Below are positions 3,656 to 44,899 of a stretch of 64,000 nucleotides of DNA, piece after piece. How positions within the stretch are numbered: position 1 is the first letter of the stretch; the number at the start of each line of letters is the position of its first letter. The notes beneath the pieces were generated by a model. It saw nothing but the letters and a program-made list of their open reading frames with translations. It was not told the DNA's origin and searched no databases. The translations under genes and the position numbers were made by a program. Source of the stretch: Terriglobus sp. RCC_193 (lineage in GTDB: Bacteria > Acidobacteriota > Terriglobia > Terriglobales > Acidobacteriaceae); assembly GCF_041355105.1 (NCBI RefSeq), contig NZ_JBFUPK010000002.1, positions 1,618,037 through 1,682,036 of the forward strand, given 5' to 3'.

Positions 3656-3971
3656 TGCTCTAGTTCTATTTTAGTGATTCGCTAGAAATAACCTGCCAAC
3701 TTTATTTGGGTTTGATTTGTTGGGGTTGGGTGGTTTGGGGGCTTGACAGGTACTTCGTACCGTTCTTGACGCCTTCGGCGTGGTGCCAGCCATGGTCTTT
3801 TGTGGGCGCGCGGGGTTTGCTTCATGCTCCTGTTTGTTTTTTTGGCCGCGCGGTTTTCTTGATTGAGGATTCTTACGGCAAGGCTGAAGCCCTGCCCTTC
3901 CGAAAGAAGACGTGCTTTGCGCGTTGGATCGCTCCTTTGGAGCGATGGAGAGCGGCTTTTGCCGCTCTGCC

Positions 3972-4000
3972 CAGGTTAGCTTCGCGAACCTGGGGCACCC
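3972..4000 (+). repeat. REP-like palindrome, GGGGCACCC tail
   Basis: CAGGTT and AACCTG arms around AGCTTCGCG, followed directly by the tail GGGGCACCC. The same hairpin recurs at 17613-17641, and a variant with CCAGGT/ACCTGG arms is at 23414-23443. The tail is identical to that of the ACGTCTC palindromes around the RAYT gene. Confidence 0.75.
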
Positions 4001-15737: not shown

Positions 15738-15770
15738 CCCACGTCTCAGAAGCGAGACGTGGGGCACCCA
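15738..15770 (+). repeat. REP palindrome (ACGTCTC) with GGGGCACCC tail
   Basis: CCCACGTCTC and GAGACGTGGG arms around AGAAGC, with the tail GGGGCACCC. It lies between the 5' end of the arabinofuranosidase-like gene and the 3' end of cysM. It is one of five copies of the family found on both sides of the RAYT gene. Confidence 0.85.
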
Positions 15771-17330: not shown

Positions 17331-17612
17331 GGGTGATGTTCCCTCAGCGGCTGAAGCCGCTTGTTTCGGGGAACTCTTTACGGCAGGGCTGAAGCCCTAC
17401 CCTTCCGAAGGAAGACGCACTTACGTGCGTTGGAGCTTCGCTTTGCGAAGCTGGGTTGGGTTCGTGGCTGGAAGGTTGTAGGGACTTTGGCAGGATGAGA
17501 GTTCGTCGGGATTCTTCCCCTTCGACAGGCTCAGGGGCAGAATGACGGCCTTTGGTTGTTGGAGCTTCGTTGGACGTACTTCGTCCGTACGAGCTTCGCT
17601 GATCGCGCTTTG

Positions 17613-17641
17613 CAGGTTAGCTTCGCGAACCTGGGGCACCC
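17613..17641 (+). repeat. REP-like palindrome, GGGGCACCC tail
   Basis: The same 29 bases as at 3972-4000: CAGGTT/AACCTG arms, AGCTTCGCG loop, GGGGCACCC tail. The similarity continues for about 100 bases downstream. Confidence 0.75.
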
Positions 17642-18929: not shown

Positions 18930-18950
18930 TTGATTGGATATTGGATAAAC

Positions 18951-18982
18951 CCACGTCTCAAAATCGAGACGTGGGGCACCCT
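18951..18982 (+). repeat. REP palindrome (ACGTCTC) with GGGGCACCC tail
   Basis: CCCACGTCTC and GAGACGTGGG arms around AAAATC, then GGGGCACCC. Located 22 bp after the stop of the beta-propeller gene, where it could also end transcription. Confidence 0.85.
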
Positions 18983-23303: not shown

Positions 23304-23413
23304 CGTGATGCTCCTGTGCTGTGTTGATTGAAATCGCCGTGGGTCCCCGGCTCGTTGAATTGGATGCAGTACACGGTGCCGTGGATGCGCGGTTCGCGCT
23401 TTCGCGCGAATAT

Positions 23414-23443
23414 CCAGGTGAGCTTCATGCACCTGGGGCACCC
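23414..23443 (+). repeat. REP-like palindrome, CCAGGT arms, GGGGCACCC tail
   Basis: CCAGGT/ACCTGG arms around GAGCTTCATGC, then GGGGCACCC. It is a variant of the hairpin at 3972 and 17613 and lies 31 bp from an ACGTCTC-type palindrome in the same orientation. Confidence 0.75.
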
Positions 23444-23474: not shown

Positions 23475-23506
23475 CCCACGTCTCAAATGCGAGACGTGGG
23501 GCACCC
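23475..23506 (+). repeat. REP palindrome (ACGTCTC) with GGGGCACCC tail
   Basis: CCCACGTCTC and GAGACGTGGG arms around AAATGC, then GGGGCACCC. It ends 5 bp from the menG stop codon. Confidence 0.85.
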
Positions 23507-44294: not shown

Positions 44295-44328
44295 GGGGTG
44301 CCCCACGTCTCGCTTTTGAGACGTGGGG
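44295..44328 (-). repeat. left REP of the RAYT unit
   Basis: Read on the minus strand: CCCCACGTCTC, AAAAGC, GAGACGTGGGGCACCCC. It is an exact match in arms and loop to the right-hand copy at 44868-44899. It lies 26 bp after the S53 peptidase stop. Confidence 0.9.
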
Positions 44329-44349
44329 TTTCTTTGTAGAATTCGCACC

Positions 44350-44865
44350 ATGCCAACAGGCCTGGTGCGATATCAACAATCCGGTCATCTCCATGCAGTT
44401 AACTTTTCCTGCGATCAACGTCGCCCCTACCTTGGTACTCCAGAAGCGAGGGACTTATTTGAAGATGCGTTGGAACGGATGCGTCTTCGTTATGGTTTTT
44501 TCGTGAAGGCGTATGTCGTTATGCCAGAACATATCCATATGGTCGTGAGCGAGACAGACCGTAAGAAGCTTTCCACCGCAATCCAGGCACTGAAGCTTTC
44601 GGTGGTTCGGCGTAGACCGGAAAAGCCGTTCTGGCTTAGCCGCTACTACGACTTCAATGTCTTCCATGAAAACAAGCTGGTGGAGAAGATTGATTATCTA
44701 CACCGCAACCCGGTAGCCCGATGTCTCGTCGCTGAACCTCAGGATTGGAAGTGGTCCAGTTACCGTCATTGGCAGACGGGCGAGGAAGGGCCTGTTCAGA
44801 TCGAATCGCCCTGGACCGCACGAAAGCGCGGGGGCCTTCCACCCCAAGCGTTATGTGGCGGATGA
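44350..44865 (+). CDS. REP-associated tyrosine transposase (RAYT)
   Basis: 171 residues from the ATG at 44350. Y1/IS200-type HUH nuclease: PEHIHMVV gives the His61-x-His63 metal site and DYLHRNPVARCLV gives the likely nucleophile Tyr116 in the Y-x-H-x-N-P context typical of RAYTs. WKWSSYRHW near residue 134 is another family mark. RAYTs cut and move single-stranded REP hairpins. Here the gene is bracketed by two REP palindromes and seems intact. It differs from IS200/IS605 elements by the RAYT-specific C-terminal block and the absence of tnpB. No SD is obvious. Confidence 0.9.
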   Translation: MPTGLVRYQQSGHLHAVNFSCDQRRPYLGTPEARDLFEDALERMRLRYGFFVKAYVVMPEHIHMVVSETDRKKLSTAIQALKLSVVRRRPEKPFWLSRYYDFNVFHENKLVEKIDYLHRNPVARCLVAEPQDWKWSSYRHWQTGEEGPVQIESPWTARKRGGLPPQALCGG

Positions 44866-44867
44866 GT

Positions 44868-44899
44868 CCCACGTCTCAAAAGCGAGACGTGGGGCACCC
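44868..44899 (+). repeat. right REP of the RAYT unit
   Basis: CCCACGTCTC and GAGACGTGGG arms around AAAAGC, with the GGGGCACCC tail pointing right. It starts 2 bp after the RAYT stop and lies 14 bp from the end of the convergent thioredoxin-like gene. Confidence 0.9.

Follow-up and report, generated by a model that had tools for sequence, protein, structure and literature searches.

A RAYT gene and its inverted REP sequences form a probable REPtron in the acidobacterium Terriglobus sp. RCC_193

Introduction

In published REPtrons, the enzyme binds a single-stranded hairpin together with a 5' tetranucleotide that helps to choose the cut (PMC8266576), and members of the RAYT/TnpA-REP family with feet other than GTAG have been described (PMC6006769). 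In Acidobacteria, RAYT relatives with non-GTAG terminal repeats, the TIRYT/TIRtron group, were reported by Di Nocera et al. in 2013, and the main text of that study (PMC3733652) names T. saanensis 392, G. mallensis 794, A. capsulatum 645 and K. versatilis. According to the same text, the motif GGGGWSAS is carried by only some of the TIRs. The statement in a preliminary description of the present locus that known RAYTs move REPs in Gammaproteobacteria is too narrow in view of these acidobacterial relatives. Knowledge of REP choice by RAYTs, and of whether REPs are still being moved, comes mainly from GTAG-tagged systems of Proteobacteria.

The DNA analysed here (the window) is a stretch of 64,000 nucleotides of the soil acidobacterium Terriglobus sp. 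RCC_193 (contig NZ_JBFUPK010000002.1, positions 1,618,037 to 1,682,036). The system found in it is, in all likelihood, a REPtron: a single-copy RAYT gene, encoding a Y1 HUH endonuclease, with a cognate 32-nt REP in inverted orientation at both gene ends.

The RAYT gene and its product

The RAYT (TnpA-REP) gene is located on the plus strand at 44350..44865. Its reading frame is intact from the ATG at 44350 to the stop at 44865 and translates into 171 amino acids; an alternative GTG start at 44323 would run into the left palindrome, which makes the ATG the likelier start. Residues counted on the translation place HIH at 61-63 and YLHRNP at 116-121, with the catalytic tyrosine at Y116 and the asparagine at N120. 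The intact HIH motif and Tyr116 context, already noted in the preliminary description, are confirmed by the translation and by two profiles against which the protein scores above the cut-off: Y1_Tnp (30.7 bits; cut-off 23) and NCBIfam NF047646, the REP-associated tyrosine transposase REP_Tyr_transpos (89.1 bits; cut-off 80). The label "active-looking" was over-stated, since activity is not readable from sequence, and the gene is single-copy and stands at the same locus in another genome (G011). The sole PDB match is E. coli TnpA-REP (4er8, E 7e-7). Within the clade H61/H63 are kept in 56/56 and Y116 in 52/52 ungapped sequences; both catalytic hallmarks of RAYT/TnpA-REP, HUH and Y-x-x-x-N-P, are present in the 171-residue protein and conserved among its relatives.

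Two other identities were rejected. Against the IS200/IS605 (TnpA-IS200) profile NF033573 the protein reaches 21 bits (cut-off 55), and the near-identical multiple copies expected of such elements are at odds with the one copy in the genome. The Y----Q signature of class 3 TnpA-Y1 is absent, the protein reading Y-L-H-R-N.

The gene is bracketed by inverted REPs that are also dispersed in the genome, as is characteristic of RAYT/TnpA-REP. The tetranucleotide GTAG (or GT[AG]G) is absent 5' of the hairpin, the tag strand carrying GGGTGC before the stem CCC; GTAG marks canonical REPs rather than the protein family. In E. coli TnpA-REP, R104 is a contact to GTAG (PMC2817692, PMC8266576). In our alignment its equivalent is F, the clade being mostly aromatic at this position, and the equivalent of Q95 is L in the Terriglobus protein and Q in most of the clade, while D101 is conserved. 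The R104 to F and Q95 to L changes would fit an altered contact with the tag.

The gene is single-copy, the genome's other four Y1_Tnp genes being distant from it, and is found in G011, another member of the genus, at the same peptidase/redoxin locus; on these grounds it looks vertically inherited. In the two relatives used for comparison, G003 and G013 (about 84-93% DNA identity, both without this RAYT), a different gene lies between the same neighbours. Given its presence in G011, the RAYT is probably old at this locus and was lost in G003/G013.

REP elements of the window

The RAYT gene stands between two identical 32-bp class A REPs of opposite orientation with outward tails and the same loop: the left one at 44296..44327 on the minus strand, whose 32-bp unit reads GGGTGCCCCACGTCTCGCTTTTGAGACGTGGG on the plus strand, and the right one at 44868..44899 on the plus strand. 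Three dispersed class A copies, all on the plus strand, are located (i) at 15738..15769, between genes and at a synteny break with G003/G013; (ii) at 18950..18981, where G003/G013 have a decayed palindrome with no tail; (iii) at 23475..23506, in a position where the copy is missing in G003/G013. Both the bracketing palindromes and the three further copies (given as 15738, 18951 and 23475) had been recognised in the preliminary description and are borne out: the exact pattern CACGTCTC-N6-GAGACGTGGGGCACCC occurs five times in the window (15740+, 18952+, 23477+, 44296- and 44870+), where shuffles lead one to expect 0. Class B REPs, with CCCAGGTTAGCTTCGCGAACCTGGGGCACCC, were found on the plus strand at 3970..4000, preceded by a second hairpin, at 17611..17641, with a degenerate left arm and within a larger repeated stretch, and at 23413..23443, 31 bp upstream of the class A copy at 23475. 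Between 17341 and 17801, class B copies lie within longer repeats (about 150-400 bp) that have many related copies in the genome.

As single-stranded DNA, both hairpins at the RAYT ends fold well below shuffles (z about -4.5). The left REP, located after the peptidase gene and succeeded by TTTCTTT, is scored as a terminator, and this segment (44296-44329) may double as the terminator of that gene. The terminator-like hairpin found at the same position in G003/G013 is unrelated; its CCCCACG stem is similar. It might be proposed that the palindromes in general are intrinsic terminators, or other RNA hairpins, merely flanking the RAYT. The score of the left copy and the position of REPs mostly downstream of or between genes speak for this, but GGGTGC, dispensable for a terminator, is part of the 32-bp unit, and a conserved T-run is lacking; in addition, the in-frame copies within genes and the outward orientation at 55 RAYT loci, both described below, would be left unexplained. 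We regard this proposal as extremely improbable.

Repeat families in the genome

The tail TGGGGCACCC occurs at 139 sites of the genome, compared to 4 for the reversed control. Class A accounts for a minority of these sites (roughly 30 copies in the stretches read), and in the selected stretches most of the others are class B, which has CCCAGGTTAGCTTCGCGAACCTGGGGCACCC with the same tail and usually follows another, variable hairpin. Because most TGGGGCACCC copies bear another palindrome, the common denominator of the repeats is the tail and not the CACGTCTC palindrome. The suggestion that this acidobacterium has a REP grammar of its own is supported, the tag being GGGTGC instead of GTAG; the CACGTCTC palindrome marks only a minority of TGGGGCACCC sites. 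No RAYT belonging to class B was found in the genome.

The comparison of 27 de-duplicated class A copies of the genome gives a unit of exactly 32 nt, GGGTGCCCCAC[G/A]TCTC-N6-GAGA[C/T]GTGGG, with few changes. The boundaries of the unit are sharp, and the adjoining bases come close to random, apart from a weak preference for a pyrimidine at -1 and for purines at -3 and -5. In the CAC/GTG stem, a compensated A-T variant, CACATCTC...GAGATGTG, is about as frequent as the G-C version. Many copies are letter-perfect apart from the loop, and the 32-bp unit is common to both RAYT ends and the dispersed copies. In the genome under study, class A copies stand alone or as tandems of one orientation; a REPIN, that is, two closely spaced inverted REPs forming a dispersed unit, was not seen among them. 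In one class B element, the left part of the hairpin is replaced by a class A hairpin (L181:1290-1308), and two tails follow in succession. Several further class A copies stand after the variable hairpin typical of class B.

Of 39 REPs between codirectional genes, with genes taken from a simple ORF picker, 30 have the tag on the side of the upstream gene (P 0.001), and REPs avoid divergent gene pairs (2, compared to 24 convergent).

Association of RAYT genes with REPs across genomes

The other Y1_Tnp genes of the genome were ruled out as a source of the REPs, as no tails occur near any of the four. Close RAYT homologues in related genomes have tails nearby, with stems that are different but self-matching. 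At 55 related RAYT loci the tails are directed outward upstream in 42 and downstream in 37 cases and inward in 3 and 9, respectively. At 62/79 ends, no more than one mismatch interrupts the pairing of the 3' arm with the sequence upstream of it, compared to 121/1500 pairings with the arm of another element. The two ends have the arm in common in 19/29 elements, and in 2.3% of comparisons between elements. On the RAYT tree, the backbone of which is weakly supported, class A-type ends form clusters (7 changes; shuffled mean 10.8; 3/500 as low).

The exact class A pattern was found in 106 of 398 sampled family genomes. The median number of copies is 11 where the sampled RAYT has class A ends and 0 otherwise, one RAYT being sampled per genome and kinship being ignored, and the tail density is modestly higher in genomes with a close RAYT (P about 0.02-0.03, again ignoring kinship). 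RAYT presence alone is a weak predictor of class A copies, since a RAYT of some kind, with another stem, is present in most family genomes. Copy numbers vary strongly within the genus. G107 has 82 copies and only a distant RAYT (33% identity). Class A copies without a close RAYT occur in G004, G005, G010 and G016, which is best read as RAYT loss after spread, although incomplete assemblies may account for some cases. The preliminary description regarded an equal occurrence of the palindrome in genomes lacking this RAYT as contrary to its proposal. Such an occurrence is found in part, namely in these four genomes. Its proposal of an acidobacterial RAYT accompanied by cognate REPs is supported, and RAYT and palindrome co-segregate between the genomes compared.

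A related question is whether REP-RAYT-REP moves as a unit, as a small IS of which solo REPs would be leftovers or MITE-like copies. Two near-identical RAYT copies each in G019 and G033, with homology stopping about 25-40 bp past the REP tail, and the inverted ends matching in 19/29 elements agree with this. However, the G019/G033 copies lie at contig ends with boundaries visible on one side only, and the genome under study has one copy, at a conserved locus. We consider this account unlikely. In G008 as compared to G002 (L072 and L075), the RAYT cassette is inverted in place, with breakpoints at the 52-bp inverted ends and colinear flanks. The G019/G033 duplicates together with this inversion suggest mobility of the whole cassette, but simple recombination across inverted repeats could also have produced the inversion.

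Sites with and without a copy

In 15 of 16 testable sites of the genome, the two RAYT ends being counted as two, both flanks are colinear in G003 and G013 with no tail between them; the 16th, at 15738, is a synteny break. Orthologous sites with and without a copy, the comparison called for in the preliminary description, are thereby shown. The cleanest empty site is in hisC, where the insert consists of 54 extra bases and nothing else; few empty sites are base-exact, and inserts usually bring extra flanking bases. Since G003/G013 retain a decayed, tail-less palindrome at 18950, the copy there is judged to be ancestral and to have decayed in these genomes. The insert in polA is common to the genome under study (G000) and G011, and the one at the N-terminus of hisC to G000 and G005; both are absent from the nearer G003/G013, a pattern that requires loss or repeated insertion at the same site. 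The his operon (L176:9175-13116) contains five class A REPs, two intergenic, two in hisC and one in hisB, none of which is present in G003/G013.

The spread of REPs by recombination or gene conversion between repeats, with no role of the RAYT, has also been considered. The class A hairpin inside a class B element at L181 and the cassette inversion between G002 and G008 would agree with such events, but a pre-existing repeat is required, and none is present in relatives at the hisC, hisB and polA inserts; moreover, dispersed copies have unrelated flanks. This route is therefore very unlikely.

A weightier alternative is that the RAYT is domesticated and the REPs are fossils, which spread in the past and are now only inherited and decaying, serving as mRNA 3'-end hairpins or tolerated peptides. 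The single-copy state of the gene at one locus in G000 and G011, the retention of class A in RAYT-less genomes, the decay of the palindrome at 18952 in G003/G013 and the polA and hisC inserts common to distant genomes all point in this direction. Against it stand the intact RAYT reading frame, the many copies letter-perfect outside the loop, the strong differences in copy number within the genus and the duplicate RAYT elements of G019 and G033, which suggest recent mobility there. We hold this alternative to be a serious possibility that falls short of probable.

In-frame copies inside genes

Class A copies inside genes were identified by a frame-neutral scan of coding composition with Pfam support for each gene, the short gene names being taken from Pfam matches and sequence recognition. 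A total of 20 were found, 6 in the genome under study: hisC (two), hisB, polA, lysS and glmS. The 14 sampled elsewhere are in polA (G011), hisC (G005), folC (G219 and G138), pheT (G304), argS (G243), panC (G088), mnmG and uvrD (G010), glmS and lhr (G292), rimO (G371), and xseA and a phosphoglucomutase/phosphomannomutase gene (G319). Reading frames spanning REPs at L264 and L278 were not taken as genes as they have no Pfam match, and one at L118 was set aside by composition only; the copies at L254 (purC) and L112 precede the domain, may be 5' of the gene, and were not counted.

In 19 of the 20 copies the peptide reads GAP[RH]LxSE[TM]W, the coding strand being the tag strand; the panC copy is read from the other strand as PRLKGETWGT, with the same PRLxxETW core. 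All 20 share P-[RH]-L-x-x-E-[TM]-W. Stop codons are lacking in five of the six frames of the class A consensus, so that chance would not be expected to yield a single peptide core; some dependence within the hisC, polA and glmS pairs is possible, however. In queA and rimO, class B copies use another frame, VPQVREANLG. In rimO-like genes, a class B REP of the genome (L191:3428-4999) and a class A REP of G371 (L281:841-2592) occupy the same inter-domain stretch, which suggests a tolerated hot spot. The inserts of hisC (L176:11720-13006) and polA (L179:9758-12808) also hold HSERSQESP and RHPERSAAELK, which look like another translated palindromic repeat family.

Class A may, as a tentative and rather doubtful proposal, be a protein-compatible mobile hairpin, the sequence of which is held so that landings add the tolerated GAP[RH]LxSE[TM]W, coding constraint thus shaping the repeat. 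If so, a protein-compatible hairpin would give a RAYT-driven repeat access to essential genes (tRNA synthetases, polA, hisC, glmS). In-frame REPs in essential genes would allow the tolerance of a moving hairpin to be measured for each gene.

Proposed mechanism

The REPtron reading proposed above builds on the observed anatomy, the identity of the gene ends with dispersed copies, the co-segregation between genomes and the empty sites. The cognate REP is GGGTGC-CCCACGTCTC-N6-GAGACGTGGG, with the tag overlapping the base of the stem. Its binding and cleavage, the role of the tag and a present activity of the RAYT are presumed from published REPtrons. The tag strand would become single-stranded during replication or repair; the RAYT would recognise the folded hairpin with the 5' GGGTGC tag, which takes the usual place of GTAG, and would cut near the tag through Y116. 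Joining of the cut REP elsewhere would scatter solo REPs, and insertions would survive where tolerated: after genes, between convergent genes, and in frame in linkers of housekeeping proteins.

Comparison with known systems

The TIRYT/TIRtron group, as presented in the main text of PMC3733652, likewise consists of acidobacterial RAYT relatives with non-GTAG inverted repeats, some of them repeated in the genome. The Terriglobus locus agrees with this description, having a RAYT-like protein and non-GTAG inverted repeats in an acidobacterium, and departs from the GGGGWSAS motif, as GGGGCACC has C at the W position. The RAYT at 465 kb in T. saanensis (G007) is probably tsa 392, as inferred from the gene number. 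That main text reports no co-segregation of stem and RAYT, empty sites or intragenic copies for the group. The shared CCC...GGGGCACCC grammar, the stem/RAYT co-segregation, the empty sites and the constancy of the reading frame go beyond the literature found.

The RAYT/TnpA-REP REPtrons of E. coli, Stenotrophomonas and Marinomonas (PMC2817692, PMC8266576) share with the present system a Y1 HUH enzyme with Y-x-x-x-N-P, encoded in few copies next to inverted cognate REPs, the location of most dispersed REPs at the 3' ends of genes and the avoidance of divergent gene pairs. However, the Terriglobus tag is GGGTGC next to CCC/GGG, and theirs is GTAG. The system offers a family-wide natural series with a different tag, in which specificity swaps could draw on dozens of RAYT/stem pairs, and has relatives that provide both full and empty REP sites.

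Class 3 TnpA-Y1 (PMC6006769) is likewise present in Acidobacteria and has repeated hairpins with a non-GTAG foot. In contrast to the Y-x-x-x-N-P and GGGTGC of Terriglobus, it is characterized by Y----Q and the foot CnGA. Intragenic REPs and the Rickettsia palindromic elements, as treated in the main text of PMC3733652 and references therein, also lie in frame in housekeeping, replication and repair genes. The present repeats differ from them in that a cognate RAYT-type transposase is linked to the palindrome and one frame is used throughout the sampled genes.
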